Below, in pieces: positions 14,521 through 64,000 of a stretch of DNA of 64,000 nucleotides. The notes under the pieces were generated by a model. It was not told where the DNA came from. It was given only the letters and a program-made list of their open reading frames with translations, and did no database searches. Each line of letters starts with the position of its first letter. Within the stretch, counting starts at the first letter, position 1. The position numbers and the translations under genes are program-made. The stretch is from Strix aluco. Lineage: Eukaryota; Chordata; Aves; Strigiformes; Strigidae. The stretch lies in contig NC_133938.1 in assembly GCF_031877795.1 (NCBI RefSeq), positions 16,338,920 to 16,402,919 of the forward strand, in the 5' to 3' direction.

Positions 14521-14539
14521 AGGGAGCTCCTAAGAAACT

Positions 14540-15370
14540 CAGGTCACGCATGTGGCACCGAGTGCTCCTCTCCGGCCGGGTGCCGCGGCCGCCCGTGCCG
14601 GCAGCCCTCGGGTACCGGCGCTGCCGCCGCCCTGCCCGCGGCTCCCCCGCAGGTAAACTCTGCCCGCGGGCGTCGGTCCCTGCTCCCCCGCCTCCATCCC
14701 CCGCCCGACAAACCTCCCGGGGCGCCCTCCCGAGCCTCCGCGGCGCGGGCGCTTGCGAGGCAGGGGGGTGCTGCGGGGCGGCAGGCGGGGGGACCCCGCG
14801 GGCCCCCTGACAGAGCGGCGGCGGGGGGGGGGGCGGCGCAGCGCTGCGCCTTTAAAACGGCCGCCATGACGCGGGCGGCGGTTGGTGCGGGCCGTGTGTG
14901 GCGGCCGCGTCACGCGGGCCGGGAGCCAGGCGGGGCTGCTGCCCGGTGTCAAACTGAGCCGCCTCAGAGCGCCCCGCTGCCGGCGGGGGGGGCGGGAGCC
15001 GGGGGCTCCGCCGCTCCGGAGCAGCCTGTAGCAATGCTTTGGTTTAGTTGCTCGTAGGTAGGTTTTTCTGTCTTACTTCCCCCCCCCCCCCCCCCCCCCC
15101 CCCCGGCCAAAAAATGACAATGTGGTGCAGTGCTGCCTGGCGAACGGTTTCGGAGATGCTTGTAAAATGGTGAACGCGTGTCACACAGTCCCGGCGGAGC
15201 CGTCTCCTCGCCCGCCGCGGGGAAGGGGAGCCCCGGGAGCCCCCCGGCGCCCGGGTGGCTGCGCGAGGCCGTGGGCTCCGCGGACGGTGCCCTGCCCCGA
15301 GCCCGGGGCGGCCGCCGGGTCCTGCGCGGCCGGGGCGAGGGGACCTTCCACAGACGGGCTGGTGCGGTTG
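14540..15370 (+). promoter_or_regulatory. SAMD13: CpG island, likely SAMD13 promoter and first exon
   Basis: About 800 bases of very CpG-rich sequence lie 1.1 kb upstream of the first SAMD13 coding exon on the same strand. A good splice donor context (TAG then GTAGGT) falls at 15057/15058 near its right side, so a noncoding exon 1 ending there is plausible; a second donor-like CAG-GTGAAC occurs at about 15388/15389. The frames through this block are composition artefacts. A 26-base C homopolymer lies just after the first donor. Confidence 0.65.
15079..15104 (+). repeat. 26-base C homopolymer
   Basis: An uninterrupted run of C on the plus strand (G on the minus strand) inside the CpG island, only about 20 bases after a candidate exon 1 donor. 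The complementary G run could form a quadruplex, and the exact length is likely to be unreliable in an assembly. Confidence 0.95.
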
Positions 15371-15928
15371 GCGTTTTGCAGTCACCTCAGGTGAACCAAG
15401 AAGTGATTTGAGGGAATGCGTTGAGTTACGTGGTCAGCGGTGCAGGAAGAAGCATCTTTTTGATTAGTTTGATACTGCTTTCTTGGTGCTTTACATGCTG
15501 CTAGCTGTATAATAAAGGGTCCTTTTTTCTTCTTTTTTTCTTTCTTTTTTTTAACAGCAGTATTAATTACTATCCTCTGTTTTTGCAAAGTTTTAGCTGA
15601 AGAGCGTGATTTCCCTATTCTGTACTTCCAGAGCTCTGTGACATTTCACTGGCATCCATTAATGCTACAGCAAGAACATCCCGAGTCCTTGGTCAGTTCT
15701 TTGGTGCTCTCTGAAATAGAAATGGCTTACTTGAGAACAGAAAGAAAAGGCTCCGGTCATTTCTGCATGTTCGGTGGAGTGGTGGAAAACGCTGTGTGGT
15801 GAAAGTACTCCATCATGCTGCAAGGAGGGAAACAAACTGGATTTTCTCCCATGTCCTTCGTATGCTCCTTTCCTTTTCAGAGTTCAGTATGCCATACCTA
15901 TAGAAGAAGCTGTGCTAGTGCAGGAAGG

Positions 15929-16095
15929 ATGGTCTCATGGATAAGATGCAGATTTAGGCCTTGGGAGTTTGGCGCTCAATTAGTAACTCTGCTTACCAGC
16001 TTTGTGTGTGAGATGGGCATAAGTCACTTTGTGCTCATCTGTATCCCAGATTCCCCATTTGTAAAACAAGGCCATGGATTTCAAAACCCCACTAG
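15929..16095 (+). mobile_element. MIR-like CORE-SINE relic
   Basis: The block reads like an amniote MIR element in sense orientation. A tRNA-like head (ATGGATAAGATGCAGA and a degenerate B box near GGCGCTCAA) is followed by the core CTCTGCTTACCAGC, then GGGCATAAGTCACTT, and then the diagnostic tail CCCCATTTGTAAAACAAGG. The many mismatches to the family pattern show great age. It lies between the CpG island and the first SAMD13 coding exon. Confidence 0.75.
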
Positions 16096-19500: not shown

Positions 19501-22500
19501 ACTTTAGGACTTCTAGTTGGAGAGACATGTTAAAGAAGTTCTTGATGTCTTGCTCTTCGTCCTCCTACATTGCTATAGGAAGGGCAATCAAGCTCACTGT
19601 GTGTCTTTTCTACCAAGAATTTGCCAATACACAAAGGTTATCTGAGATAGGGTGATGGCAGGCTGAGGATAGGAAATGCAGGATAAACATAGTAATATGA
19701 ATGATTGGTTGGTTTTGCTACTGTGGAAAGCAATTGCCTGAGGTCAGTCAATCACAGAAGGGATTTGTTCTGATTGTGTTTAACAGATGTTTTCTCAGGC
19801 TCCTAGGTATTTAAAAAGTCCATAGATTTGTCCAAAGATGAGTCCAAAAGCAATTTTGGGAAATTTTTTATATTGAGCAATTAGTGCAATCATTGGTGCC
19901 TCTCTTTTTTTTTTTTTTTTTTTGTTTTACAAGTAAAGATGGTTTCCAGTAGTTTCTATCCATGTTACAAGGAAGCACAGGCTCATCTGGGAAAAGAATA
20001 ATCCACATACTGCAATTCTTTATAAGTACCTGGTAGCTGAAAACAAGCTGCAGGCTTGAAAGACAGGAATTTGGTACCTCAGTCATGGTAGTCTTTGTTG
20101 TCCAACTGCAAAGGCAGCACACTTGCAGGAAAAGATCCTGATGCTATCTTTGGCTGATGTGAAGATCCATATACTTTCTTCTTTTCTGAAGGGAGAGGTA
20201 CCTCAGTTGTCCTCAGCATCAGGTCTTTGAAATGGAAGAGGACAGGAGTGACTATCAGGGTGGGAGGAGGTGTGTCAAAGGATACTTTTCCTGGAGGAAC
20301 GAGGAAGGAGGGGATGTACATGGGGTGTGCACAAAGAAGCAGCAGATGCTCTGCACACATTTAGTGATTACTTGTCTGGATTTGCACTTTGCAGTTCAGT
20401 AGAGAACGGGAGACCTCCGGATCCTGCTGACTGGGCTGTTATCGATGTTGTGAATTATTTCAGAACAGCTGGATTTGAAGAACAAGCCAATGCTTTTCAA
20501 GAACAGGTAAATCTGTTAGGAAACACCTTTTGACTGCCACCAGTTTCTCACATTGCACATTTTTTGCCATGGACCTGCTTATATACTGTTAAATGGGAGT
20601 GAAAATCACACATCAATGTGGGGATCTGAGTGTGTTATTGGGTGAAAATCCATGGGACTATGATCTTTGAGTAATAATACTGTTCAACAAGGTGTGGATA
20701 ATGGGTGGGAGTTTGTTTAAAACTCCTCTGAAAGGTGAGGAATCTAAACAAATTTTCTGGCTTGGACTCAGTCTTCCTATACAACCCACTCAGTTTCACT
20801 GTCTTGTTATTTAAAATGTGAATGGTAATTCCCTTCTTCCTTAGTGTATTGTGCAAATACTCTCATGAGTATTTGTAAAATCCAGGGCTCCTAAGAAGCA
20901 AGTTGCTTTTGAAGACCTAGGATGAAAAAGGGGCTGCTGTGTTGCATTGAACTTGGCAGTGCAAGTGAACAGGGAAAGAAAAGTTGGCAATAAAGGGGAA
21001 GAATCTTTTTATGCACAGGAGCAGCATGTTTGTAGGACTCAGTCTGAGAAAGAGGTTGGGTCTTCATTTCTGGGCCTTGTAACTGCTGATGCACAGCTTC
21101 TTTTGGTAGATTTGATCAGCAAAGAGCTTAACAGACATATGCCCCTTGTAACACCTGTCAGCACACTGGTAAGGTGTGTTAGTGGGGCAGGATAGGGAAG
21201 CTGGCTTACTTGGCCTACAGCCCACCTGTTCCACAGAAAAGGAACTTAGGTTCACGAAGATGATCAGGGGCCTGGACCACCTGCCTTATGAGGACAGACT
21301 GAGAGAGTTGGGGTTGTTCAGCCTGGAGAAGAGAAGGCTCTGGGGAGACCTTAGAGAGGCCTTCCAGTACTTAAAGGGGGCCTACAGGAAAGATGGGGAG
21401 GGGCTCTTTATCAGGGAGTGTTGGGATAGGATGAGGGGTAACAGTTTTAAACTGAAAGAGGGTAGATTTAGATTAAATATAAGGAAGAAATTCTTCCCTG
21501 TGAGGGTGGTGAGACACCGACACAGGTTGCCCAGAGAAGCTGTGGCTGCCCCCTCCCTGGCAGTGTTCAAGGCCAGCTTGGACGGGGCCTCGAGCAACCT
21601 GGTCTAGTGGAAGGTGTCCCTGCCCGTGGCAGGGGGGTTGGAACTAGGTGATCTTTAAGGTCCCTTCCAACCCAAACCATTTTGTGATTCTATGAAGTTA
21701 CATATCCAGGTTGTCAGTTCAGCACCTTCCCCGGTGAGTGTATAGGTTTGCGTGCCAACTACCAGGAAATTAATTACCAACACTTGTATTTAGTTATCAA
21801 AATAGGTGATTGGACCTTCCAAGGCACTGGGGTAGTGCAAGTTATTGGCAGCTTTGCAGGGAAACTGTACATCTAACATGAAATAACGTTACTGTTGGTC
21901 AGGTTAACCTTGCTGACCTTCAGCACCTGGACAGTGAAATCCCATCTGATTGTAAGTGATGAGTATAACAGAGTATCTAAATTTAGCTCTTTGTACTTGG
22001 GGGTGAAAAGCCTAGTGTCGGGTAATTCTCTGGCAGAGTGCAGAGAGAGGCTCTTTCTGCAGCTGCTACTAATTTTTCAGAATTTGAAGACAGGTAAACA
22101 TGCAAAAACCCCTGTTTAAGTGTATCTAGTCCTTAATACCAGCATCCATGTCTCCTCAACAACCCTGGAAATGTGGCTTGAAAAAACACACAGGCAAAGT
22201 GATTGGAGCCTCTGGGGTTTTTTCCTTATACTGACAGATATCTCTGACTTTCATCAAATATCTTAACCTCTCGGCACCTCAGCTGGCTTGTCAGTAATAC
22301 TGCAGTAATTACTACTGATCTTGCAGCAGAAAGGTGAGGCTAACTCATGAGTTTTGGCAAAGCAATTTGCAACAGCCTGATGGAAAGCAGCATAGAAGTA
22401 GAGTGTAAAGGTTTTATTAGTATTCTGCAGTGAGGGCAAGTGGCTTCAGGAGGATAGCTGAAGTAAGCTGCTTTTTGGCAGTGTGTTGCCAGGGCTTTGC

Positions 22501-35005: not shown

Positions 35006-35160
35006 CAGAATCATAGAATCACAGAATGGTTTGTGTTGGAAGGGACCTTAAAGATCACCTAGTTCCAACCCCCCTGCCATGGGCAGGGACACCTTCCACT
35101 AGGGCAGGTTGCTCAAAGCCCCGTCCAACCTGGCCTTGAACACTTCCAGGGAGGGGGCAT
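35006..35160 (-). mobile_element. CR1 LINE 3' end, antisense, 5'-truncated
   Basis: Read on the plus strand it begins with the reversed CR1 terminal repeat units (ATCACAGA / ATCATAGA / ATCACAGAATGG). It continues with GGAAGGGACCTTAAAGATCA, CCCCCCTGCCATGGGCAGGG and ends near CACTTCCAGGGAGGGGG, the standard reverse complement of an avian CR1 tail. About 155 bases remain. Confidence 0.93.
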
Positions 35161-36066: not shown

Positions 36067-36204
36067 TTAGTTTCCCTGAGCAGCTGCCAGTCCAAAGTGA
36101 CTTTGCCTGTCATCTTTTAGCACATGGCTCTGTGCTTCTAAGAACTTCTTCCTGCCAAGCGTGCAAGCACAGGAGCCATAGGGAGTTTCCACTGGAACCA
36201 GAAC
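36067..36204 (-). CDS. UOX: UOX exon 8 (terminal coding exon)
   Basis: Begins after a pyrimidine-rich CCCCCTCAG acceptor with VLVPVETPYGSCACTLGRKK, matching the final strand of uricase. It runs on about 20 residues beyond the usual end, to QGN and a TAA stop. Two cysteines (CAC) fall in the extension-proximal part. Confidence 0.88.
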   Translation of the reverse strand, partial: VLVPVETPYGSCACTLGRKKFLEAQSHVLKDDRQSHFGLAAAQGN

Positions 36205-39200
36205 CTGAGGGGGATGAGCACAAACACAGAGGTCATTTCCGAGACAAGGATGTGCCAGTATCATCACAGCAGAAACTGCAGCTATTCATCTCCTCATAAA
36301 ATCATGCCCAGGCCCTTTCCTTCTCTTATGAACATCAGTGGTAGATGTTGCTGTTATCTCAAGTGAAAGTGGACTTGTAATGTCCACCTGAAAGAGGGCA
36401 AGGGTAGGATAGGATGGCAGCAGAATCACGACTTAGGGAGGGAGACTAGAGCATAAACAGACTATAGACCATTGATGCAAAATGGAATAACCCAGTTTCT
36501 CTCTGCTGCATGAGGATAACAGACTTTCAGTGGGACCTGGCTGTCAACTAGAGCAGCTGTGGAGGGAGGAGCAAATATATCTCATCCCCTCCATCTCTCA
36601 CTCTCTGCCTGATCCCAGGCTTATACGTTGTCCACTGTTGGATCAATCTGCTTTGGCTCCTAATGGCTATGGAAACATCCTTTCACTGCTCCCTTAAAGT
36701 GCTGGTCTTCATAGAATCACAGAATGGTTTGGGTTGGAAGGGACCTTAAAGATCACCCAGTTCCAACCCCCCTGCCATGGGCAGGGACACCTTCCACTAG
36801 ACCAGGTTGCTCAAAGCCCCGTCCAACCTGGCCTTGTCTTCTGTCACCTGGAGTTAGCCTTTGGCCCAGCTAACCTACTTGTAACCCCCACTGCACCAAG
36901 GTTGCTCCCTGGCCTCAGTGGTGCTGCCAATGGAGCAGAAAGAAGAGCCATAATGGGCTAGCTTTTCACATGACCTGGCTATGTGAAAGGATGACATAAT
37001 GAATTTTGTTTGCTTAAAACTGCACAAGTTGACATTATAACTAAAAGTCAAATTCAGTGGAGAAAACAGGAATGATTTTTTCAGAGGTACTCTCGGTTAC
37101 ATATCCCTTTGATCTCCACAGCATTCCACTGTGCTCCTTTAGCTTTTATCAGTAACACAAGAAGGCAGTTATCCTTCTTCTGTAATCAGTGTAAATCTCT
37201 TTCAGAGGTAAGGTGGAGCTTTCACTGGGGCTGGGGGAGAGTTTCCTCCTTTTAACTCTGTTCTATGCAGAATTGCTGCTATGCTTTAAGGCTGGGTGTT
37301 TCTAGAGTCCAGGTAAGTTGTATTTGGAGCATTTACTTACTTCTTTGTCATTGGTCAAGCCTAGATTCTTCATGTCTACGACATTATAAAAAGTGTTGTT
37401 CAACACAGTTTCTATGACCTGTACCTGAAACCATGAAAACGAATGAGACAATGAAGTAGGGCACCTTTTCAGCCAACAGCCTGGCAATCTTTTCACTCAC
37501 TGAAAAGAAAAGCAACAGAATCCCCCACCCCCATATGTACAGGGGTTCAATCTATTGAACGTGTAGACAACGTTGTATCACCCCTTTCACTTTCACTCAT
37601 GTCCTGCCAAGCACTGAGTGATATTCTCCCCCATTGTGTTCACAGCTGGGGAGCAGCATATGAACTTCTCAGCGTGTTCATATTTTTTCAGACCATCTAG
37701 CTGTGCCACCAGTTTCCAGTCTTACTTGGGACTGCCAGAGGAAACAATAGGCTCATTTTGGTCTTCTCAGTGGTCCAGTTAACATTCACTATTGTTTAAG
37801 TAAAACATCAGCAGGAGGAAAGAAGATACCTGTGACACTTTGGAAAGGACGAGCATCTGGATACTGTTGACAGTTTTCTGGTAAGAGGGTGAATATTCCC
37901 CACAGTCGGGTGGCCCAGAAAAGGCTTCAAGGATACATTCACGGATTTTGTTCCTAGAGGCAACACAGATTCTTACAAAACCTTGTATCAGCTGTCTCTG
38001 TCTAGATCCGTAATGTTTCACTGTAGAGTGGGTTTTTTTCGTATTTTCTCTGTCTTTTCTGACAAATACATAGCACATGGGATTTTATGGAAGAGCAATT
38101 TCTTTGCCCTGTCACCTCCAAATTCCACCCCCCAGCTCTATAATTCACAAATAGGTGTTTTGCTAAAAGTGCTTAACAAATTAATTGTTAGTTTGTTCTC
38201 CTAAAGTGTTCTGTGCTGAACACTGAACTGTCCATTTAAATACTGCCCACTGATGCACCATCAGAGAGAGAAGTACCCCCCAAGCAGTACCCCCTCTCAC
38301 CCCTCCTAACAAGTGCTTAGCGCCACTGCTGAGATCTGTGAGAGCGGCTGGGGCACAGCAACTGTAGATCTTGCCCTTACACCTGCTGTGTTGTATAGAG
38401 GGACTTTGGGATCATAGATTAGGTAATAAATATTACTCGATTTGATGTATACCATATGCAGTCAAAGTCAAAATCCTTGCATTCGCCATATGACCATTTG
38501 CAGAACAGCTCTCCACATAAAATCCTGTCATGCCTTTCAGGAAGAGTGGTGTGTTCATTCTTAAAGAAGCCTTCAAATCCAGACTGTGTGGTCTTCATAA
38601 GTTTCAGATCTTTAATTCCAGCAAAAACAACCAAAGGACCTGTGATCCAAAAATACGAGAAATATGAGCTCATTTTCATGCAGAGAGAAAGAAACCTCTG
38701 GGTGCGTACTTGCAGCGATAGCTTCAGAGCCATGAAGCAGTCTCTCCAGGACTCACTCATGTGCTTCTGTTGCAAACCTAACTACTTTTAAAAATTATAT
38801 TCTGTGCACTGATGTTAGCAGAAAGGTAAGAAACAAGACAAGAAACTACTGAACTCAGAGCTCAATCTAGAAAACAGAGAATCCTATCGAGTGACCTGCA
38901 CTCAAGGAGAGCTGAGGACACCCTTTATCTCACCTCCTTGGAGCTGGGACATGCATTGAGTTGGCTCTCACTGATGTCGGTTCAGAGACTAATTGCTCTA
39001 AAGGGAAATGAATAGGCTACTAGTGCTGCAGTGTACAGGAGAGGTGTGGTGAGCCATTTCTAACAACACAGACAGTGTAGCAGCTCTCTGTACAAAGACT
39101 TGGAGCCTCAGTCAGAAATTCACTTTACATACCCTTCCTGTCGGGAGTTTTGCATCTGTAAGAACTAGAGGGCAAGGAGCCAATGCAAATCCCTGCAGTT

Positions 39201-42200
39201 CAGCTAATTAGCAGGAACTGGCACTGATACAGATGCCACCCACAGGTTCAAACTGACAGCAGTTTTGCTCTGAGGCACTATTTATAAAATGTGCTGTTGT
39301 AGGTCACTGCTGCATGGGTAGATTATCATCTTCTAAAGACCAGTTGTATCCTGAACTTTGTTTTCTGACAAACACTTAGGATGGCAGCTAAACAATTTCA
39401 AGCAGTCAGTCATCTAGAGCACACCAAACTGATAACTGAAAATTTCACTGACCAGAGCTGCCAAAAAAGCAGATTCAGAAAAGAGAAACTTTATGGCACG
39501 CAGGCTTATTCAGAGCCTGTACGGATAGACAGTGGCTGAAGCCCAAGCTGCTGTTTCTGTGCTGCTCTTGGTGCTCACAGTATGTAGTTCAAAATTAATC
39601 CTTGAATATGTCTGGCGCAGAGTAATCCTGCCTCGGACTGGGAAAACTAACAGACTTTGTCTCTAAACTGTGTCTTTGCAGGAATTTATACTGGAAATAA
39701 TTCCATTATGATGGATATTTCTAAATCACGTATTTGTTTAGAGGTTTGATTTTTTAATCTGCTCTGTCACTGGAAATGATCAAAACTGCATTTAACCTAT
39801 TTCTTCTCTTGTTTACATTCATCATTGTTTTTGAATGAGTCCAAGGAGGTGTATCTATAATTTTGGCTACATCCCCCTGTTATTTACTAAAGCTTTAAAA
39901 AAAATCTAAAGAAGAGACTGTCCTTGGACAGGATATTTTAGGGTTTGTTCAGATCTTGATGAGTTCATTGCTTGGGTATAAGACTGTAATACACAGGTAT
40001 TAATGTAGTGCAGATACTATTAGTGAACCTGGAGATATATTTATCTCATATTCAAATACATAGCCTTGTTTGAAAGAGCTCCTTGCAATGAATGATTTAC
40101 CGAAAGGCTGGCTGAGTGGCTGGCTGTGCGGCAATCGACCTGAAACTCGCACTGAAGAATATAATGCCTAGGCAAAGATTTTGAGGTGAGCAGCCGTGCT
40201 GTGCTTTCAGTATGTTTTGTGCTTGTGCTGTCTTCAGCTGTCAAATGTTGACACTGTTAAGTTACTTATGATGTTTTCAGTTTCCAGAAAACTCTGAGCC
40301 TTTTATCAGCCAATACAATGGCAAAAAATAATTCTATTAAAGTTTCTTTTAATTATGAGAAAAGTGTTAAAAGCTAAGATTAACTGAGAAATAAATTTCC
40401 GTGTCTGGCTGATAGGTGCATAGGAGGATGCTAAAGATAGAGAAGGTTCTCTTATAAGAAAAATAAAAGGGATTTGAAAATCTTGTCTTTGGTTATTGTT
40501 CACCTAGGCAGGGAATCCTAAAGAAACAGCTAAAAAGCTACATGAAGGGAAGATTAAGAAGGAAAGGCTGTTTCTTCAGTAAGCTTTAAAGACTTTTTGT
40601 TTGTATAGAACCTGAAATTGCAGAATTTCATGCTGAATTTTCAAGGTGATGAAAAATTTAATTCAATCTGTACATTAATAGCAGCAGCTTTTCAAGAAAG
40701 CATAAATTCTTCTTCTTCTTTTTTTTTTTTTTTTTTTAATTCAGGTTTCTTTCTTTACATTTTCCAGAAACCAAAGTCAATACTATTGAAGCTGCTAAAA
40801 ATACAGCAGTAGTTAACATTACTAGGAACATTAAAAAAGATTAGGTCAAGAGGCACTGGAGACTTGTACGGGCTCTCTCTTTTCTTTCAGTAGGAAGACA
40901 GGACCAATGCTCAAATGCACACCTTTCAGAACTTTTGTCCTGTCTGCAAGTGAAACTTGTCTTGTCACTGCTCCTAACCCTGGCACATTAGAGAAATAGG
41001 GAGAGAGGGTAGGATGGGAAATAGTTCTAAGTTACATTAGGGCAGTAATAGATAGATACTGAACTAATGTCTAAAACCACTGAACCCACTGTGTTAAATG
41101 ATGGTCTCAACTCAGTTCTCAGTAGTCTGAGAGATGGATTAAATGAAACACCAACACAGTGAGATTGAATTTACACTCTTCCTGTGAGTCATAGCAACAA
41201 GAGATAATTTTTGTTCTCCCTTTGGAATGCCAATTTATGGACCAACAGTTGAGCTTGAAAGCCTATGTCTTTTAAGTTCACAAAACTCTTAGTGAAGCCA
41301 AATGGTGCTTTGTTTATGCGTGGCATGCAAAAATAGTAAGAACACTCTGAAGTATTTTCATGTGAAAAATTGTTTGCACATAGACCTGAGGGCTCATGAT
41401 GTTCAAGCCAGCCTGGCTTGCAGCAACGAAATTGCATCTTTCTTAGAAATAAAACCAAGGCATGTTGACATGGTTTTGAAAATAACCACAAACTAGGCAA
41501 TCGGCCTACAGCAGTGTGGTTTCATGATGCATTTCTATAGGGTAATGATAATACTGAGACTGCAGAATATAGTATCATCTGAAAAAGTAATCAGACCATT
41601 CTCAGAAGGCTACTAAATCCTGTGACAATATATAGCAGTTTTGCTGGATGTGCTGTTGTATGTTTAGGGTATACATACAAATGAGAGCTACAGTAGTTCT
41701 TCAGCCATGTCTCAGAGATCAAGGGCTGCAAAATTAAGACTATAAAAGTATTCTTTGTTTCAGACCTCTGGAGTGGTTTGGCTGTGCTGTAAGCCCTGTA
41801 ACACCTTTAGCTGTGTCTAAAGCCATCTTCATCTCTCATCGGCGGAAATATTTACAGAGAAGTAGGGAAAGTTGCAAATTCTTTTCTCACCATTTCGGCA
41901 CTGCTCAGCTTCACAAAAGCGGATCCCATCAGGAACGCATATGAATGAGTGGATGTGGGGAACGCCATTCTGCGATTTAGAGCAGACATGTAAGTAAAGG
42001 TGCAGTAAATACTATCTTAACTTGAAAACGGGAACTAAGAGAGTGATAAATGGCTTCAGCATAAACAAACTGAATGCGTTAGTATTTTAGATACCTCATG
42101 TAGACGTTGCCATGGTACTTCTTGAACATAGGTTTTGACGTACGCCACTTGGCAAAATGTTGTCATGAAGTGTTTGCAGATATCTATAGCAAATTGTTCT

Positions 42201-43281
42201 AAAGTCGGGATCTAAGACAACAAATAGTATTATTAGAAAGAAGCAATTACCTCATGTACAAAAATAGATTGTTCTGACTGTTGTAAATATTTGGGAAGGA
42301 TCAATGTTAGAAATACAGATTTCTGTCATTTCTGATTTTCCGCACTGTGCCTAGTCATTTGATCAGCTTGCAGCATACACTGCAAATAGCTACAGTCACA
42401 TCAAGAATCCCCCATTCTGTGGTATAGTGAGCTGCAGTTCTTCGACTGAGTGAAACTGCTACAGAAGCCTTACACTTTGAGGATATAATGCTGAAATAAT
42501 CATAGTGATATTCTGATTGAGCTTTACAGACTAAAGATGGGATTTCATTACTGAGACAATTTATGTTACAGATTGTCATGATGATAGATGCAATTGAGGG
42601 ACGTAAGAGCACAGTTAACAATTAAAAGGAGTCTCACATACATACACATTTAAAAATGCTATATAGGAATAATGCATTATTATGTGCTATTAAATTAAAA
42701 AAAAGATGGATCTTATATGACAAATCAACAAAGAAAAGGCTTTGGAAAACTAAGGAGTCCACAGGATAAGCACTGGAGGAGAAAAAAATTCTTTCCTGAA
42801 TCACTGAAGGTGACTAGTGCTGATCTGACATGCCAATGGGGGAGAGATTATTTTGATGCATTTTGAAAACAAAAAGCTAGTATAACAAACACTTCCAAAT
42901 GAAGTCATAAGAAACAGCAAGGCTAGTTAAAAAATACCCCATTTTTTTTGGCCAACACAAGGACAATATTCTTTATGGTGTCTGTAGGTATCACAAGGGA
43001 GTTGTTTCCATCCAGGTACTCATGAGCAGAAGTCAGCCGGAGATGCGTGCACACTTCCACTTCTTTAACAAAGTGCTTCTTCCCTTCTCTGTGAAGGCGA
43101 AGGAACTTAATTGTGTTCTTCCCATATTCACAGTTGAGGACTTCTACATCCTTGATCTGCAGAGAAAATACATGACAATTGTAAAGGAACCCAGTGGAAG
43201 CCTGAGTGTGCTCAATGAAACATAGACAATGTTTATGGCCTTTATTTCAGTGGTTACCTGCAATAATGAAAATATTTCCAT
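36067..43281 (-). CDS. UOX: Cysteine-rich urate oxidase-like protein (UOX)
   Basis: Seven firm exons encode the two tandem T-fold halves of uricase, which normally oxidises urate to 5-hydroxyisourate in peroxisomes. Exons 2-8 join with no stop or frameshift (315 codons), and all junction phases agree. Matches include YGKNTIKFL, IPTDTIKN, TTQSGFEGFF, HDRIL and GEYSPSYQKT. The catalytic Lys (YGK) and Thr (PTDT) and the urate-binding Phe and Arg are kept. The catalytic His of the N-x-H motif is Phe (NNTFY), and the Val of the SPSVQ motif is Tyr. About 15 cysteines are present, far more than in mammalian uricases. The C-terminus is extended by about 20 residues and ends QGN, so the peroxisomal SRL/SKL-type signal is gone. 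This fits the cysteine-enriched, functionally shifted uricase reported for chicken and reptiles. Exon 1 is only a candidate. Confidence 0.9.
36711..36835 (-). mobile_element. CR1 LINE 3' end, antisense, 5'-truncated, with short direct repeat
   Basis: About 125 bases of reversed CR1 tail, from CATAGAATCACAGAATGG-like ends to CCGTCCAACCTGGCCTTG. The hexamer GTCTTC occurs immediately before it (36705-36710) and after it (36836-36841), a plausible target-site duplication. It lies inside the UOX intron between exons 7 and 8. Confidence 0.92.
37341..37424 (-). CDS. UOX: UOX exon 7
   Basis: 28 codons with VQVIETVL, NNTFYNVVD and MKNLGLTNDKE. The donor GTAAGT is strong. The acceptor before GTACAG is chosen because the length then equals that of the mammalian exon exactly, which places Phe at the active-site His and keeps the Asn two residues earlier. 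Confidence 0.9.
37830..37953 (-). CDS. UOX: UOX exon 6
   Basis: The first base completes a split Trp codon, then 41 codons read NKIRECILEAFSGPPDCG and EYSPSYQKTV, and end IQMLVLSKVSQ at a GTATCT donor. The Gln of the substrate-contacting Val-Gln pair is kept; the Val is Tyr. Confidence 0.92.
38453..38639 (-). CDS. UOX: UOX exon 5
   Basis: 61 full codons bounded by split Gly and Trp codons, with IKDLKLMKTTQSGFEGFF and LPERHDRIL, the core substrate-binding region. Four cysteines occur (ILCGEL, LFCKW, GECKD, FDCIW). The donor is GTATAC. Confidence 0.94.
38640..41890 (-). other. UOX: UOX intron 4
   Basis: A 3.25 kb intron without recognised genes. It has a poly-T run near 40719-40737; no CR1 or SINE was noticed. 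Confidence 0.6.
41891..41969 (-). CDS. UOX: UOX exon 4
   Basis: 26 codons plus one base: NGVPHIHSFICVPDG then IRFCEAEQCRN. Three cysteines fall in 26 residues, two of them at sites not normally Cys. The acceptor is ATCGCAG and the donor GTGAGA. Confidence 0.92.
42095..42211 (-). CDS. UOX: UOX exon 3
   Basis: 39 codons in phase 0, with IPTLEQFAIDICKHF and VKTYVQEVPWQRL, matching the end of the first T-fold. Cysteines occur at DICKHF and TFCQV. Confidence 0.93.
42938..43156 (-). CDS. UOX: UOX exon 2
   Basis: 73 codons from IKDVEVLNCEYGKNTIK through HFVKEVEVCTHLRLT to IPTDTIKNIVLVLAKKNG. It contains the catalytic Lys and Thr positions. The donor is the weak GTATTT after GGG, right behind an A8 run, and its position matches the mammalian exon boundary. 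Retention of the intron would meet a stop after four codons. Confidence 0.92.
43258..43281 (-). CDS. UOX: Candidate UOX exon 1
   Basis: A short in-phase coding piece of eight codons, MEIFSLLQ, ends in the good donor CAG-GTAACC and would join exon 2 across a 101-base intron. The length is close to the ten residues of the mammalian first exon, but the residues are not conserved. The true first exon could instead lie further upstream, up to about 45 kb. Transcript evidence is lacking. Confidence 0.35.
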
Positions 43282-48300: not shown

Positions 48301-51300
48301 GCTTGCTCCTCCTGATATATTTGAAGGGTTAAGAACAGTCAGGCTGCATTTTTGGTAAATAGTATAGGATTGAAGATAATGCTGCTCAGTTCTTACTTAC
48401 TATTGACATAAATAACAAATTATTCAAGTACAGCACTCAAAGAAAGTGGCTCAATTAATTATATTGCAATTAATCCCATGGACTTGTGCACTGGGAAAAC
48501 CTGTTTACTTCATCAGGGACATTAATGTGAAATGAGCCATTTACTGACAATATTGAGTACTCTACAATTTTGAAAAGATTTGTCTCTCTGGCTAATGGTT
48601 TGCAAATATCCAGTCTGCAACAGTTCAGCAGAGTGTGAGTCTGTTATCAAAAGTAGGATTGGAACAACATTGTCACATGGCTTTATACTTATTTTGTGGG
48701 TTTAATATGTATAAATATAACATTATCATTTTTATAATTTTATCTATTTTATATAAAGTTATATTTGTATAATGTAAGAATGTATTGGTAAGAGGTGTCC
48801 AGGTTGATCATGAGAATATCAGACTGAGTTTGGGACCTGAGGTTCTCTACCAGCATCAGGAGCAATAGGGATTTGGTGGCTAAACAGGACTCCAAATCAG
48901 GGCCACCTCAAATTCTTTTGGGGTACCAACAGCAATCTGTCACAGCAACAGGTCAAACCATCCTCCCTTGCTTGCTAAGAAGCAGAACAAATTTGTCTGC
49001 AGCAGGTACTGCGCTGCCAAAGTGCTGCTGGTTCCTGCACTGGGTCACCTCCTCCAGGCTGGGAGATGTCCACACCGCAGGCTGGTGGCACTGGTCCCCC
49101 TCCAGCATAGCAGCATGGGCATCCCCGGAGTCACCCTGCTCTTAAATCCTCAATCCTTACACATTCAAACAGGATGGTTGTAAAAAACAAGTCTTCTTCA
49201 CTGTCACAGGTTTGCTCTTTACAAGTTGCCAAAACATGCCAAAGGAGAGATTCCCTTGCTGGGGCTGGAATACATGTACATGGACACCCTGGCTCCACAG
49301 TGGCAGCTCGGTAAATACCTCGTCAACATGACACAGGGTGCTCTGGGACAAACACTGAAGCAGCTGTACGAGATGTATGAATCTGAGGCAAGTGACATTT
49401 AATTATCATTTTATTAGTACACTTACTTGATATTACATGCAAATGAAATGAAACCAGCCAAAAAAAGCACTTAGAGGTATGGCCAGACCTGACCAACTAG
49501 ATCTACTAAAACACATCAAGGGGAGTGTCTCGACAGCTGGGCAGTTTATTTGCAGTTTTGGCTACAATTAGAAATTACCCTTGAACTTCCATTTTCTAGT
49601 CAAGCCTATCACACACTTAAAGCATTGCCCATCAGAAAAATGAGCATTGGCACATAGTTCCTTTGTTTTTTTCTCTGCAATCCATGTTGAGCAACGTCTG
49701 AAGCTGTGAACTGGCTGTGAACTCAGACCAGGGCCAGTGGTGACTATTACAGACACTTGTCCTAAGTCCTCCCATGTGCATGTGTTTCATGCTCTGTCTC
49801 AAATCAAATCTGGGTTTTGCTCTTCTCCCTGAAATCACTGTGACTGTTTCAGCAGAGATATGCTGCTTGTTAGGCCTTTTTTTCCCCCCACAATCAGACA
49901 CCTCATTTATATTTGTGTGAAGTGATTAGAAAATACCACAAGATCTGCCTATAGTTATTTTGTTACCATCTACATAGTATTCTCGGGAGTCTGGGTGTGT
50001 CTTTGCATTTTTGCTGTGGGTTAGTGGTGGTAAAGTGTCATTAATTTCGATGTGGAAGAGATTCCCACAGTCAGTCAAATATTGTCAATCTGTTCAACTG
50101 TCCTATTCTGGTCAATTGTCCTATTCCAGGTCTCACTGTAATTGTAATAAACTGCTTACAAATTCAAAGTACATCAGGAGGGGAAGCATGTCCCAACTCC
50201 TTTGAAGTTCTCTGTTCAGAGAGAATAAGGTGTGGCTATATGCAAACCTTTTGCTTGTCCTTCATAAGAACGCTTGTCACGTCTATTTTCCTCAGCAAAC
50301 ATTTTCACCTGGTCTGGTTGCTAAATCAGAGAGGCACAAAAAAAAGAGGGGGGGGGACTTCTTTGCAAGCGAGTGCCCAATAAACCCATGTAAATTGTCT
50401 TAGTGAGTATATTCAACCTCTTGAGGAAGGGCTACTGCAATGATTGAGAGAACTTCCACTTTATATTAACTGGGACCCTAATGCTGAGTCTTCAGGTTTA
50501 TTCTACTGTAACTTCTGTGGAGACTGTGCCAGCTGAATTGGGAGAAGGATTAGGCTCATGGTGTTCACACAGAAAAGTCCTGAATTCTTTTTTCTGTTCC
50601 CAGCAGAAGCTCGCTTGAATGCTTTCCTTTTACTGAATGTCATGTTTCAGAAATGTGTGTTTTCCTGCAGAAGAACAGCATTGCATATGCGATATACAAT
50701 GATGAGGTCCCTGAACCAGACTCCAATGGGTGGAAGAGAGGACATACCAAAGGTACAAGGAGAGTCCCAAGTTATTATTTTCTCCTTTCTAAAGTTGTGG
50801 ATAGCATCTACTTGTCTGTCTATCTGCATATCTAAAATTCCTGCCTAAAGCAAAACTGGAGAATGATTTGCATCATGCGTGGTTTGTTGTATAGTTATAT
50901 ATGCTGCAGCGTCTGTTTTGGTTTTGCTATGCCTGTGCTATGTTGAAGAACTCTTAGGGCTTATGGACCCTTTGTTTTCAAGAGTTAAAATTTATGTATC
51001 TCCTTTCAGCGAGTGCAGACCACATTGTCCTGAGCCTAACAGCAACAGCAGTACAAAACGCGAAGTGAAAGGCACTCTAAACCCCTCCAAACTCTCTCTC
51101 TCTGGGGCAAGAAGCTGCTGCCAAGATCATGGAAGTGCTAAAGCATGCAGCAGAAGTAAAGCAAGACTTTAAATAAGTGTAAAGTTCAGTGGAGGTGTAC
51201 ATGTTCCGCTGAGGAAGCAGATGGGGTTTGCCCAGCCTGACTCTGGGATGACCACATTTTGCAGGGCTGTGTTTTCAGGCTGCAGCCATGGGGACAGCTT

Positions 51301-54300
51301 GGAGCTGTGCTCCTCCCTGGAGCACCCTGCTGCAGAGGGAGGCACAGCCTGTCTCTCTGCTGCTTCCCTGCGGAGGAGAATTTGGTCTGGGGAAGAAAAC
51401 ACAGCATTGACGGAATCTGTTTCCATTTACGCAGAGAACATATGAAGGGAAGGAAAATGAGTAGTGGAGAGAGGGTCACAGCCACTAAATCATCAGGCTT
51501 TTTAAAGACAAAATTTGAGCAGAGAAAGAGAAAAATTTTGAAATTTTTTTTTTCAAAAGAAACATGGTGACAGTTTGAGTTAGGCTATGCAGGAGAGAAT
51601 TAATGCAATTTTAATAGAATGTTAGTGTCTCTTATAATCCATTGAACTATTCTAGAGCCAGTTTACTGTAGACATTAACACACTGAAGTGTGGTGTCTGC
51701 AGCAGCAAATCCAAAGTAGGACACAGCTTTATCATCTCAGGGCTTCTTCCTCCTTAATTCATTTGCAATAACTTTTTTTTTTTTTTTTTTGACAGGTTTT
51801 CTGCTCTTGGACAAATCACAAGGCTTCTGGGTGATTCACAGCGTGCCCCTGTTCCCTCCCATCCCTGAGGATGGTTATGGGTATCCAGCTACTGGGGAGT
51901 CCTATGGACAGACAGCCATCTGTATAACCTTCAAATATGACCAGTTCACAGAAATAGGTATGAGAATTTTCTCCCTAAGAAAGCCTTTGCCCCACCGCAC
52001 CTCTCTGACTGCTTTCCTCGAGGCTTCACCTCAAAAATTGCTTGTTCTTGTCCTTCATTGTCAAATTCAGAAACCAAGTGGGGCTTGGAAACAGCGTTCT
52101 TGGCCTCAGTTATGTTTATCCAATGATTTCCTGTGTGAATGTGGGAAATTCACTCTTCTACTCTGTCTCCATCTCCCTGTGGGGACTAGGGATAATAATA
52201 GTCACAAGTGCAGTTCGAGAGTAGACTCAGTCCGTGCATACAAAATGCTTTGGAAGGATGAAGTAGGATGATTAATCTTTTTTAACAGTAATAGCTTGTT
52301 CAGCTGCAATCATCTGCAGTTCTAAAAATGTAAGGCAACCACTGCTTGAGTCTGAGTAGTAGCCTTGACTCATCAGAAATATGAAGTATGGAGGAAATAT
52401 CACCCAGAATTTACCCAGGTACTTTTTGTTACAAAAAATACCAATACTAAAATTGGAAAAAACTCAAATCCATACCTGTAAGATTCAGAACAATCTGAGA
52501 GTGATATCTGGTACTGGGATCCTGAAAGGGACTATCAAAAGGCGTTACAAGAAGTCATACTTCTTAAGTATGACAAGAAGTCATGCTTCTTAACGCTTTT
52601 CACACTGTTTTTCACTCTTTTCTCAGTTACAAACCTCAAATGATATTAACAAAACACATAAACTGAGCAAATGGCCAGCCTAGCCATACCCCAGAGCTAT
52701 CTAAACCAGGTTCCTGTTTGTGGAAGCACATCTATGCATGTGTTTAGGAAAAGAGGACAAGAAAATGAGACACTTACACTAATGCTTTTCCTGCTCCATC
52801 CTCCCAGTTTCTGGTAATCTGTGGTTCAGGGGATTTCCTGAGCCGGAAAGACTGGAAAGTTCCTGATGGACTGGTCTTCCATGAACTCATCTAATGAGCC
52901 CATTTGTTCCCTTGCTCTTTATGATATCCATCGCAAGGAATTCTACAGTTAAGCTGTGCACTGTACAGAAAAGTAAATTTCTTCTGCAAATTCAATCCAG
53001 ACACTGAAAGTCAAGCTCTGTTCTCCCTAGAACCAAACTAGACCCTTTGGCATCTCTCCTGTTTGCATTTGGCTTGGCAACTGTAACTGACTGGAAACTA
53101 CTCCTGTAAATATGGACAGGCTTGGATTTACACATGCTGTCTGAGCGCTGTGTGACTGCTTAGAGGCTTGAAGATGAACATGGGTGGAAGTGGCAGTGGA
53201 CCAAGACCACTGGTTAACAGTTCTGCTAGGAATAATGAGGTGTAAATAGAAAAACCTAAGCATACTCTCCCAGCCAGTCTACGTGCCACAGGGCCAGTCA
53301 GAATACAAAGCAACTAAACACGTTTTTTGGTTGCTAAAATAAGATACTTTGACACTGAACTCCTCCAGGAGATAGGCTGTGAAGACTAAGAGGGATTTAA
53401 GTGTCCTTTCCAAGGCAGAACTTTGCTCTCTTGATTGCTTCACTTTAACCCATTTTAATACTGCATGTGTTCATTTCTTTGGGTTTTTCTTAGACCAACA
53501 GATGCTGAGTAATAATCCAGGAATCTACAGCTGTTCCATCCCTAACATCTTCCAAGCTGACCTCCCAAATCTGCAGAAGCTCTGTGCAGGGTCCAGGCTG
53601 CCCTCAGTCCCCTTGCACCACCTCTCCAAGCTCCAGTCAGCTCACGGGGAAACATTTCTCCACTTTGCAAAGTCACACTTGTTCATAGATGGTAAGAGTA
53701 GCTGTTGCTCTATCACACATTCTCAAGCAAGAAATAAGTAATTAATATATTCTTTGGAAATTAGTATTTTCTCTGAGGGGAAAAAAGAAGTTCAGCTTCA
53801 GAAATAAAGGTAACAGAGGGCAAGGAATGGTGTCCCATCATAATATTCTCTCAGCCCCACAAAGTGAAAAGCTGTCTGGTCCTTCAGATGCCTTAAGGTG
53901 TTCAACAATGTGAATTTCAGAAAATTTATTTTCTGTTATTCAACATTAACAACAAAGAACAAAAATGGGCTTTGAATCATCTGCTTTTTTTTATTATGAA
54001 GAAGGCTTGAAATTTTTTTCCTTTCTTTTTTTTTTTTCCTGCTGATTGTTTGTAACAGGTTTTCTAGGAGAAGGAGTAGAAGCAGAAATTAGCTTCTGAA
54101 ACGAAAGTCAAAATAAGGAGAGGGGGCAAAATTCTCTCTGGCTCACTTTCTGCATTTGAATGAAATGAGCCCAGTTTAGGTGATGCTTTTCAGTCACCTC
54201 TTAAATGAAGGAACATGAAGGACTAATTTCGCACAACCTGTGTTATTCCACAGATATCTACGTGGCCTGGATGGCCCAGGAACTGAAAACCGATTTGTTG

Positions 54301-54609
54301 GCTGAATCCTGGCAGCATTCCGGCCAAAAACTTCCTTCAAATTGCTCTCTCGACTACCACGTCTACAACATAGACCTAATAGGGATGCCATTGAATTTCA
54401 CCTTCTATTCCATTAACGATCATTCCAAATGGGCTGTTTCAAGGACATACGAAGATCAGTGGACGTGCATTGGAGACTTAAACCGCGCTGCTGAGCAAGC
54501 TTGGAGAAGTGGTGGGTTCATCTGTACACAGAATGAACATATCTACAAAGCCTTCAGGCATTTGATAATCCACTACAACAGTTGCACCGATGCTTCCACA
54601 TTGATATAA
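45267..54609 (+). CDS. DNASE2B: DNASE2B, deoxyribonuclease II beta
   Basis: Six exons (45267-45379, 49210-49387, 50671-50752, 51796-51957, 53494-53691, 54254-54609) join in phase to 362 residues, the normal family length. DNase II enzymes cut DNA at acid pH in lysosomes without metal; the beta form removes DNA from lens fibre cells in mammals. Seen here: a signal peptide (about residues 1-24, a run of Leu then APLWAA), the mature start EISCRNE, the first catalytic motif HTKG with His122, and the second HxK motif DHSKW with His301 and Lys303. Conserved blocks include GFWVIHSVP, PSNCSLDYHVYNI and WTCIGDLNR. N-glycosylation sites include NMT, NCS and NFT. The start is the only Met before the signal peptide in this exon. 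All active-site residues are intact. Confidence 0.96.
45665..45975. promoter_or_regulatory. CpG-rich patch in DNASE2B intron 1
   Basis: About 300 bases are clearly richer in GC and CG than the flanks. The patch lies 400 bases after DNASE2B exon 1 and could be an intronic regulatory element or alternative promoter. Frames across it are low-complexity and not credible proteins. Confidence 0.45.
46794..46836 (-). mobile_element. Short CR1 tail relic, antisense
   Basis: ATCACAGAATCACAGAATC followed by TTGGAAAAGACCTTGAAGATCA is the reversed CR1 terminal repeat and the start of its tail, with more mismatches than the other copies. Only about 43 bases remain. Confidence 0.75.
47502..47539. repeat. 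19-base tandem duplication
   Basis: AAGAAGTAAATATGTGATT is followed directly by a copy differing at one base. Confidence 0.95.
49210..49387 (+). CDS. DNASE2B: DNASE2B exon 2, followed by a GC splice donor
   Basis: The first base completes Trp38, then 59 codons read FALYKLPKHAKGE, LLGLEYMYMD and QLYEMYESE. The exon must end at GAG because the next exon resumes in phase 0 with KNSIAYAIYND. The intron then begins GCAAGT, a classical GC-AG intron with an otherwise perfect donor. Confidence 0.93.
49388..50670 (+). other. DNASE2B: DNASE2B intron 2 (GC-AG)
   Basis: A 1.3 kb intron with donor GCAAGT and acceptor TTTCCTGCAG. A pair of TCAATTGTCC-like direct repeats lies near 50092-50127. Otherwise nothing was recognised. 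Confidence 0.6.
50671..50752 (+). CDS. DNASE2B: DNASE2B exon 3
   Basis: 27 codons plus one base, with KNSIAYAIYNDEVPEP and RGHTK; the His of HTKG is the first catalytic His. Confidence 0.95.
50753..51795 (+). other. DNASE2B: DNASE2B intron 3
   Basis: A 1.0 kb intron. It has a moderately GC-rich central part (about 51190-51400) without recognised function and a T19 run as part of the acceptor pyrimidine tract. Confidence 0.6.
51796..51957 (+). CDS. DNASE2B: DNASE2B exon 4
   Basis: 53 full codons between split Gly and Asp codons: FLLLDKSQGFWVIHSVP, PPIPEDGYGYP and QTAICITFKYDQF. The donor is GTATGA. Confidence 0.95.
52090..52260 (+). mobile_element. MIR-like CORE-SINE relic
   Basis: In order it shows CTGTGTGAATGTGGGAAATT, CACTCTTCTACTCTGTCTCC, GGGGACTAGGGATAATAATA and AAATGCTTTGGAAGGATGA. 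This is the core-to-tail layout of an amniote MIR element in sense orientation, well diverged. Confidence 0.75.
52547..52593. repeat. 26-base tandem duplication with inner dyad
   Basis: The unit ACAAGAAGTCATACTTCTTA plus AGTATG is followed by a second, partial copy with one A/G change. Each unit contains the imperfect dyad AAGAAGTCATRCTTCTT. Confidence 0.93.
53494..53691 (+). CDS. DNASE2B: DNASE2B exon 5
   Basis: 65 full codons between split Asp codons: NNPGIYSCSIP, ADLPNLQKLC and GETFLHFAKSHLFID. The acceptor is TTCTTAG and the donor GTAAGA. Confidence 0.95.
53692..54253 (+). other. DNASE2B: DNASE2B intron 5
   Basis: A 0.56 kb intron in which no further feature was seen apart from a T-rich run near 54010-54040. 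Confidence 0.6.
54254..54609 (+). CDS. DNASE2B: DNASE2B exon 6 (terminal)
   Basis: 117 codons and TAA. It carries IYVAWMAQELKTDLL, the second catalytic motif INDHSKW, WTCIGDLNRAAEQAWRSGGF and ICTQNEHIYKAF. It ends a few residues beyond the usual terminal Cys, with TDASTLI. Confidence 0.96.
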
Positions 54610-61300: not shown

Positions 61301-64000
61301 GTTGGGGCATTGAGAGAACTGCAGGCAAAAAAAAGTAAAAACAAATGTAAAAGAACATAAACAGAACATAATTAGTGATAAGCAAACTGATGCCTTTAAC
61401 ACTTTCCTCTTGGGATTATTATTACAGATATATCTACAACATAAGGCCTTTTATTCTCAGGTAAAAATCAAGCTTAGTTTAGAAACCTCCCCAGTTTTAT
61501 ATTTGCTTCAGTTTCGTCTCTGATCCTACTTTGCTCTCCAGCATTAAACAAACCACCACTGGTCTAATATAGTTGTTTCTCACTGCACTGAGTCAAAATC
61601 AGCAAGCATTCCTAGATATTACTTACTGTCACTTGGCTCATGGTGGCCTGCTGTTTTGTCACCTCCTGGTCTTGGATCCCACAGGGGAATAATGGCAGTA
61701 TAGAAGCTGTAGCTCTATAAAAAGTGTCATCTTAACATCAGAGGAGGAGCTAGGCATAAGGGGTTGGCTTCACAAATGTAAATACCTCATAATTTATTAG
61801 TATCATGGCTTTTCTTTTACCCCGAGGCAAAAGCTTTAATAAAGGAATAGGTCTACTGCAGCAAAGGAAACAACAGCAAAAATAGAGACAAGGAAACATC
61901 CTAACTCCATTAATATTGGTGGGAATTTGTCTTCATCCTCAGTGGGAACAGAACTTCAAAGACATGGGAATCACCCATAAAACCTGAAGGATAAAATCTG
62001 AACCTTTCGTGGTCTATGACACAAACTGTATTTAGAGGATGGTAGTGTTGTCCCGACATGGTGGAAATGTCCCCAGCAGGAGTTTCAGATCCTTGGCTTG
62101 ACCACAGCCTTGTCCCCACCGCTGCCAGGGTGGCTGTTAGGACAGATGTCAGAGAGACCACATGCATGGGCAGTTTCTTTGACAGAAGAACCGCTCTGAG
62201 GCAGGACCATGCAGGAGTTGGGCAGAGATGAACCTCCTCTTGGTGAACACTGTCTCTCTTGCTGTTCATGGCTTTGCTTTCAGTACCCAAATCAGGAAGA
62301 AGTGATATCCCCACCTTTAGAGGTGTTTTTTTTACATCTCAGTAATTTAAGATATTCTTTCAAAGCCTATCTCTGGCAGAATGAAGACTGAAAGCTGTAT
62401 CTCCTCAATGCTACCTTGTGTTGTTAGCACTAAGGAAGATGAGTGGTGTGGAAAGAAAGAATCTTTTCTTTTCCAGGGAGATTCAAGATCTCCCTCAAGG
62501 ACTAAGAACATATCCTGAGTGCACTCTGCCTGCTAAATGTTGTGAAAAATGTGGGAAAGCCAAGATGAGGGAACTCATTCCCAAACATCTCTGCAGGTCT
62601 TGTTTTGGTACTGCCACCATACAGCAAAATAGAACTTAAAAGAACAGAGGTGCCATTCTTCTGCTAACAGCAGAGTTTGTTTCCCTCTCTTTCCTTTGGA
62701 TGACTCCTTATACTTCTTCCATTCCTGGGATTGTGTAATAAGACACAGTATCAAGTCACTGTATGACAATGTGTGTAATGTACAAACAACCTGGAGAGGT
62801 TGTTACACTCTCGGTGGGTGAGTTCAGCTGCCCCACAAACACACAGATCCTCATAGTCCGATTTTAGCTCTTCAAGAAAAAGTCCCCCTCTGTCCTTCAT
62901 TATTGGCCACAAAAATAAGTCTGACAACACAGATCCTTTCAAATAAACCAAATTCCCAATAATGTTAGGTCTTTCAGGAAAATGTTCCATGGCAGTATGT
63001 ACCCTAATTAAGCTCCTCTTTAATTTCATGTTATATTTCATAAGGGATCTGCACCACCAGACCATTGCAGGTCGTATCAAGAAAAAAAAGAGAAACATTT
63101 TCAGAAAAGCCCCTTTAAAAGAAGTATGTTTACCCTATGCTAATATGTCAGTGATGATTTTCAGTCCCTGGGTGTGGAGAGGTCTATGCACAACCTTTAA
63201 GAAAGCCACAAGTATGACTACAGAAATACAAGTTCACACCTATTTTCCATACATTAAATTTCTTAAGGAAGCCTGTGCCTCTACTGAAAAACTATAGAGA
63301 AATTTCAAAACCTGTGCTTTTTGCAAGTCAGACCTATACTGTATGTCAAAATACACAGTTGGGGTTTTTTGGGTTTTTTTGAGAGAGAGAGCATTGCTCA
63401 GGATCCTGCAGGAAAAGAGAACTTACGGTTTCAATACTTTTTTCAATAAAACACAGTATTTCTTTAATGCTGAATTCCTTTGGTTTCCAGTGCCCTCATT
63501 TTTAACAATCAGCAGGTATATAACTGTTGTAGAAATGAGGAATGAAGCATGTGGTTTGGCTGCTTTGAAAATCATATAATAATGCTATTTGAATTTGTGG
63601 GCTTAGCTTGGTAGTACAACTAAAATGACTGTCAGCTAGACAGATAGTGCAATAAAGGTGAAACACAGTACTGCAGATAAGAAACTAATCTTTATTTCAT
63701 GGTCCCCGTCTTCTCTGAGTATGTGAGCCCAGCACTTTGTGGGATCAAGTGACACTCTTAAGCATAACACATCTGCTATGGAGCACGACCAGTTTGATTA
63801 GATTAGTTAAACCTAATGTGGTAAAGGCAAAGTAAAACTGAGCAGCTTCGTGGCCCTTACCAAGTATACCATAATCAAGTATACCATATATCTTCCATAA
63901 GCAAGGGAAATTTCAAGGGCTAACAGCTTCTGAAGTAAGTGTAGTGTAATTTAACTGTAGTATTGTATGAAGCATGACAATAAGATCAACTGAGTAAAAA
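55330..64000. other. Region downstream of DNASE2B, no gene recognised
   Basis: 8.7 kb of AT-rich DNA. In other amniotes the next gene is RPF1, but no RPF1-like coding exon is visible before the window ends. A GC-richer island at about 57240-57460 and another at about 58090-58480 look different from their flanks but match no family I can name. A tandem duplication is listed at 58443-58484, and a short GT-rich run occurs near 63360-63380. Confidence 0.45.
58443..58484. repeat. 20-base perfect tandem duplication
   Basis: GCTCCAAAGTGTGCTAGATT occurs twice in direct succession with no mismatch, followed by the start of a third copy (GC). Perfect identity suggests a recent slippage event or an assembly artefact. 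Confidence 0.95.

Follow-up and report, generated by a model that had tools for sequence, protein, structure and literature searches.

The closest described relative of the gene reported here is the cysteine-rich urate oxidase (CRUOX) of chicken (LOC101747367; PDB 8OFK, 8OH8, 8OIH, and 8OIW; Mori et al. 2023, PMC10517255). According to the available text of that study, the chicken protein weakly oxidizes urate to HIU with release of H2O2, reduces HIU back to urate, binds xanthine-agarose, and forms cysteine-mediated disulfide aggregates under oxidation. Its kcat is more than 100-fold below that of the zebrafish enzyme. The gene is expressed in skin and feather follicle, with the liver transcript absent, and birds lack a liver uricase. 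Turtle Uox1 and Uox2 are likewise sauropsid uricases, and the same source reports their expression in skin.

The window, a 64,000-nucleotide stretch of the Strix aluco genome (contig NC_133938.1), contains on the minus strand a urate oxidase gene of eight coding exons with a total span of 61641–36067 (Table 1; residues are numbered throughout as in chicken CRUOX). Exons 2–8 join into 948 nt, i.e., 315 codons and a stop, with zero internal stops; the six introns between them are all GT-AG, and the remaining two frames are stop-rich. A sequence-only reading of this DNA had described an open uricase of seven minus-strand exons and 315 codons with sound exon joins and splice sites; all of this stands, but it overlooked exon 1, which lies beyond an intron of 18.5 kb and outside the interval it considered. 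Exon 1 matches the chicken sequence, taken from a published cloning primer, with 0 mismatches over 17 nt (exon plus GT), where 0.29 matches with ≤3 mismatches are expected by chance. A start in the intron directly before exon 2, as the database models for Rissa (P0001) and Taeniopygia (P0002) seem to have, was rejected in favor of exon 1 at 61641 because this stretch, part of the open reading frame at 42923–43246, has no in-frame ATG here. The complete protein has 320 amino acids from 963 nt of coding sequence, and no stop, frameshift, or broken splice site was found across the eight exons and their boundaries. Its C terminus, FGLAAAQGN, is an extension without a peroxisomal targeting tripeptide, colinear with chicken up to the penultimate residue.

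Table 1. Coding features of the CRUOX locus and its neighbors in the window.
Feature	Positions	Strand	Remarks
CRUOX exon 1	61627..61641	-	MSQVT; strong Kozak gccaccATGa; GTAAGT donor; exact match to chicken exon 1
CRUOX exon 2	42938..43156	-	C14, Y16, K18, C41, P62, T63, D64; also whole-genome match
CRUOX exon 3	42095..42211	-	C90, C98
CRUOX exon 4	41891..41969	-	C128, C136, C141
CRUOX exon 5	38453..38639	-	F165, L176, R182, C185, C190, C197, C204; best Pfam PF01014 place
CRUOX exon 6	37830..37953	-	C212, C223; SPSYQ with Tyr230 and Q231
CRUOX exon 7	37341..37424	-	N-T-F motif: N257, Phe259 replacing catalytic His
CRUOX exon 8	36067..36204	-	C287, C289; C-terminal extension; stop; colinear with chicken
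DNASE2B exons 2-6	49210-49387, 50671-50752, 51796-51957, 53494-53691, 54254-54609	+	antisense inside CRUOX intron 1
SAMD13-exon-like open reading frame	20252..20533	+	downstream of CRUOX

The best homolog of the DNASE2B exons is an annotated deoxyribonuclease-2-beta (90% identity, entire query covered); DNASE2B exon 1 was not located within the window. CRUOX exon 1 sits upstream of the 3′ end of this divergent gene, which is the derived sauropsid gene structure. The open frame downstream of CRUOX resembles an exon of SAMD13.

The identity of the gene is supported by a match to the Pfam Uricase family (PF01014, E = 5.6e-52) and by a phmmer comparison with chicken uricase 8OFK, whose E = 8e-201 excludes a chance match. 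Of 319 aligned residues, 284 (89%) are identical to 8OFK. In the protein tree, the Strix aluco protein is placed inside birds, and a genome-wide protein search returned seven matches, every one at this locus. We are therefore nearly certain that the gene is an intact avian ortholog of CRUOX and the sole uricase locus found in the genome. The sequence-only reading had anticipated an ortholog of the cysteine-rich skin uricase of chicken and reptiles, and the identity to chicken, the position of exon 1, Tyr230 and Phe259, the C terminus lacking a peroxisomal tripeptide, and the cysteine content all bear it out. By analogy, we infer for Strix aluco the same activity and tissue as in chicken.

Cysteines make up 15 of the 320 residues (4.7%, including C14, C98, C287, and C289), in line with the ~5% that characterizes CRUOX. 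Among the matches listed by the protein searches (the best 120 of 134 rows and the best 120 of 811 rows), the median is 5 in 126 non-sauropsid rows, as against the 15 found here; sauropsid rows with at least 300 amino acids, of which there are 28, have a median of 16. Each row is a 90% cluster whose members were not individually read (P0001 alone covers 321), and ‘non-sauropsid’ denotes rows whose names indicate neither a bird nor a reptile, including 12 of the 126 that lack an organism name. All eight cysteines named in the available text of the chicken study (C14, C41, C98, C141, C197, C204, C287, and C289) are retained. Chicken CRUOX has 18 cysteines, of which C149, C236, C240, and C270 are missing here, while C128 is additional; with four of 18 absent and one extra, the precise complement of cysteines is not constant.

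The Lys-Thr-His triad of canonical urate oxidase is incomplete in Strix aluco, with K18 and T63 kept and Phe at 259. An altered active site had been recognized from the start, with the His of the N-x-H motif replaced by Phe (Phe259), the Val of SPSVQ by Tyr (Tyr230, giving SPSYQ), and the catalytic Lys and Thr and the binding residues F165, R182, Q231, and N257 retained, and each of these assignments holds. The alignment with other uricases proposed at that stage finds both altered residues in chicken as well, so these changes are not peculiar to Strix aluco. Among the matches listed, residue 259 is Phe in eight of nine readable bird rows and in the sole crocodile row, but His in all 17 readable lepidosaur rows and in 124 of the 126 non-sauropsid rows, the remaining two being unreadable there. 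The nine bird rows represent eight species, both Aquila rows being one species, and Varanus is represented by two rows. Of 43 sauropsid rows, eight were left out at 259 (P0005, P0006, P0020, P0024, P0030, P0053, P0096, and P0115), being fragments or models that apparently lack exon 7 or extend into intron sequence; the 35 kept include Chelydra P0108 (Asp), a fragment whose reading is distrusted. Turtles differ from the Tyr/Phe combination seen here: three Uox1-like rows (P0011, P0018, and P0118) have His/Tyr at 230/259, i.e., swapped, and further rows (P0012 and P0015–P0017) have Tyr/His. A third search of the proteins, for which turtle and crocodile sequences were aligned as the query, added no sauropsid row in the best 120 of 811; hence, the crocodilian state at 259 rests on one row. 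The fork joining crocodile and birds in the tree has a support of only 80/79, and a single origin of Phe259 depends on it.

The enrichment in cysteine, together with the lack of the triad His in those bird and crocodile rows that are readable among the matches listed, would suit a corneous protein that is cross-linked through its cysteines and has a solely structural role, catalysis being irrelevant. We consider this improbable: the nine bird rows readable at 259, again among the matches listed, all preserve the Lys-Thr dyad and the residues that bind substrate, and the chicken protein both turns over urate and binds xanthine-agarose (PMC10517255).

A recently dead or dying pseudogene, still open by chance, fares far worse. 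Substitution-only simulation places 89–90% amino-acid identity at ~0.05–0.06 neutral changes per site, and an uninterrupted frame survives in 23% of simulations with 0.05 changes per site, in 15% with 0.06, in 1.5% with 0.15, and in 0 of 400 with 0.3. Chicken and other birds are separated by a neutral divergence far above 0.06 per site. The protein diverges from chicken by 11%, compared with 20% for the adjacent DNASE2B, and so looks constrained rather than decaying, in a comparison that, with DNASE2B itself under constraint, gives relative constraint only. A low Ka/Ks was also found by Keebaugh and Thomas (2010), as cited in the introduction of PMC10517255, and the protein is strongly conserved among birds. 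The absence of a liver uricase in birds and the departure of two catalytic-pocket residues from canonical uricases would be expected of a pseudogene, but 320 codons are open with intact splice sites, and the altered residues are common to chicken, whose protein is active (PMC10517255); we judge decay highly unlikely. Equally hard to credit is a conventional liver uricase degrading urate at a normal rate, which the retained Lys18, Thr63, Phe165, Arg182, Gln231, and Asn257 would allow, but against which stand Tyr230, Phe259, the missing peroxisomal tripeptide, an exon 1 moved off the promoter shared with DNASE2B, and the >100-fold lower kcat and absent liver transcript of the 89% identical chicken enzyme (PMC10517255).

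The initial proposal that this uricase was repurposed rather than lost is thus supported. For chicken, such repurposing was demonstrated in a 2023 publication (PMC10517255), which reports expression in skin and a slow oxidation of urate, so that the proposal is right but not new. What the present locus contributes is another intact CRUOX ortholog and an active-site residue, Phe259, that is a detail beyond the main text of PMC10517255, which names one active-site substitution, Val to Tyr230.

In the available text on Aspergillus flavus uricase, the equivalent H256 hydrogen-bonds the catalytic Lys and is a member of the proton relay (PMC7792999, PMC3900588). Loss of His259 would contribute to poor completion of the reaction and may help explain slow turnover. 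Tentatively, and with more doubt than confidence, we propose two steps, in which Tyr first replaced Val230 on the sauropsid stem while His259 persisted, and Phe then replaced His259 on the archosaur stem, turtle Uox1 having the swapped His230/Tyr259; the archosaur loss of His259, not Tyr230, would then be a main cause of slow turnover and of stopping short of HIU. The chicken Y230V and Y230H mutants each lose ~75% of activity (PMC10517255), from which it follows that the active site is not readable from single residues; under the two-step reading, Y230V would fail to restore activity because the loss of His259 is a main cause. His259 is retained in lepidosaurs (all 17 rows readable there among the matches listed) although sauropsids as a group are uricotelic; therefore, its loss is unnecessary for repurposing. 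Residue 259 could make part of the odd kinetics of CRUOX directly testable.

Compared with canonical urate oxidases (zebrafish 5LL1, ancestral mammal 4MB8, and A. flavus), the Strix aluco protein shares PF01014, the Lys-Thr dyad, and the Phe/Arg/Gln/Asn substrate pocket. The canonical enzymes have Val or Ile at 230, His at 259 (in readable non-sauropsid rows among the matches listed), few cysteines, and a C terminus of the peroxisomal type; the mouse and zebrafish genes have exon 1 beside the promoter shared with DNASE2B (available text of PMC10517255). With chicken CRUOX, in contrast, the Strix aluco gene has in common an MSQVT exon 1 located past the DNASE2B 3′ end, Tyr230, Phe259, the C-terminal extension without a peroxisomal tripeptide, and the eight cysteines named in that source; the two proteins differ at 36 of 320 residues, including the final one (Asn here, Lys in chicken). 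The ape uricase is dead, whereas birds retained and reused theirs, a clean case of an enzyme in a new tissue and role.

Seven exons on the minus strand of the window, with a Pfam Uricase match (E = 5.6e-52), join into an open reading frame of 948 nt (315 codons plus a stop) that is free of internal stops, and all six introns among them have GT-AG boundaries; the other reading frames of the join contain many stops. The sequence-only reading had described an open but catalytically altered uricase; the positions, number of codons, and residues that it gave are all correct, and the observation now widens to the entire gene by adding exon 1. In sauropsids, the coding part of Uox starts with an exon upstream of the neighboring gene DNASE2B, past its 3′ end, and the cloning primer for chicken cysteine-rich urate oxidase (CRUOX) gives the start as ATGAGCCAAGTGACA (MSQVT), followed by ATTAAGG (Mori et al. 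2023, PMC10517255). The chicken 15-mer plus GT is found in the window with no mismatches; its Kozak context is good and the donor reads GTAAGT. One further place in the rest of the window resembles this query, with three mismatches. This exon therefore sets the extent of CRUOX, whose 18,470-nt intron 1 encloses DNASE2B exons 2–6 in antisense orientation and whose complete protein has 320 residues. A protein search of the entire 1.41-Gb genome returned seven matches, every one at the window locus, and thus no second copy was seen.

Features of the window (window positions)
Feature	Position	Strand	Remark
CRUOX gene	61641-36067	-	
CRUOX exon 1 plus GT	61641-61625	-	
Other seven CRUOX exons	43156 to 36067	-	
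TATA-like stretch	61713-61724	-	CTTTTTATAGAG; about 70-80 nt upstream of start codon
DNASE2B exons 2-6	end at 54609	+	between CRUOX exon 1 and other exons
DNASE2B exon 2 donor	49387/49388	+	GCAAGT
128-nt repeat	35011-35138		downstream of CRUOX
128-nt repeat	36709-36836		in CRUOX intron 7
G+C peak	14001-16000		0.59; adjoining 2-kb steps 0.47 and 0.41

The TATA-like stretch may be the core promoter from which skin-type exon 1 is transcribed, and the G+C peak is possibly the CpG-island promoter of a neighboring gene. DNASE2B exon 2 apparently precedes a GC-AG intron. The two repeats, 97% identical and 1698 nt apart, resemble tails of the bird CR1 retroposon. Several bird uricase models among the database rows (each standing for a 90% cluster) look wrong, namely P0001, P0002, P0005, P0006, P0020, P0030, and P0053: they seem to start inside the intron ahead of exon 2, or to skip exon 7 and continue into intron 6, so that the N-x-F motif is lost from view in some of them.

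The gene appears constrained within birds. Residue differences are smaller for CRUOX than for DNASE2B against chicken (11% and 20%), a passerine (9% and 15%, a different species for each gene), and a charadriiform (5% and 13%, different genera), whereas the order reverses against crocodilians (36% and 30%, with Crocodylus used for one gene and Gavialis for the other). This pattern fits a CRUOX that changed faster before the bird radiation and came under tighter constraint thereafter. In a neutral simulation of the frame, with substitutions only, 89–90% identity was reached at about 0.05–0.06 changes per site, and 0 of 400 runs stayed open at 0.3. Neutral divergence between chicken and other birds is far above 0.05–0.06.

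The main text of PMC10517255 names a single active-site substitution, Val to Tyr230 (chicken numbering), and contains no mention of F259, N257, H256, H264, or 'triad'; its alignment figure should display the change at 259. Work on A. flavus uricase (PMC7792999, PMC3900588) describes a hydrogen bond from H256 to Lys10 and assigns this His to a Lys-Thr-His triad and proton relay. We equate H256 with residue 259 by motif (N-x-H/N-x-F) and spacing, since Val227–His256 and Tyr230–Phe259 are both 29 residues apart. Among the 35 readable of 43 sauropsid rows, Phe259 occurs in eight of nine bird rows (8 species) and the one crocodile row, and His in all 17 lepidosaur rows, tuatara included. Turtles pair residues 230/259 as Tyr/His in four rows (P0012, P0015–P0017) and His/Tyr in three resembling Uox1, one of two turtle uricases (P0011, P0018, P0118); one fragment reads Asp at 259, a reading we distrust. 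Non-sauropsid uricases have His in 124 of 126 rows, the other two being unreadable there. The remaining bird row, P0008 (Corythaeola cristata), has Ser at 259 and also at 98, where chicken C98 makes an intermolecular disulfide in the crystal (PMC10517255); this protein may thus be drifting or specialized. Among the papers listed by a search covering few subscription journals, no prior one on residue 259 in sauropsids was found by titles and abstract openings.

On a maximum-likelihood tree of 29 proteins, built with sites 230 and 259 included, the five residue pairs need four changes, the minimum possible; support at the crocodile–bird fork is 80/79. By parsimony, Tyr230 would have arisen first, with His259 lost later on the archosaur line, and turtle Uox1 would reflect a reciprocal exchange of the two residues. 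Chicken CRUOX has a KM of 12.5 uM and a kcat of 0.03 per second, versus 3.95 for zebrafish uricase (PMC10517255). As described in the main text of that paper, the chicken mutants Y230V and Y230H left the missing His unprobed because both carry chicken Phe259, and loss of this His would be an obvious candidate cause of whatever slowing is left unexplained. This proposal has a point against it, in that lepidosaurs, also uricotelic, retain the His. The pattern at 259 is a modest, testable addition to the known CRUOX story.

Repurposing of this uricase is already published. Chicken CRUOX reduces HIU, the product of urate oxidation, back to urate, aggregates via disulfides with H2O2, and is expressed in skin and feather follicle but not in liver (PMC10517255); by analogy, the Strix aluco protein would share these properties and the kinetics. 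The 29-protein tree places it inside birds, with Rissa nearest. Among solved structures, chicken uricase 8OFK matches it best, sharing 284 of 319 aligned residues. Both catalytic residues, Lys18 and Thr63, are kept, as are those of the pocket (Phe165, Arg182, Gln231, and Asn257), and Tyr230 and Phe259 are common to both proteins. This likeness, cysteines included, supports the earlier interpretation of a repurposed gene orthologous to that of chicken. The C terminus lines up with that of chicken across the sauropsid extension and lacks a peroxisomal tripeptide. Eight cysteines named for chicken in the main text of PMC10517255 are all present. Chicken has 18 cysteines and the window protein 15, since the latter lacks those at 149, 236, 240, and 270 and has an extra one at 128; the median in non-sauropsid uricases is five (126 rows).
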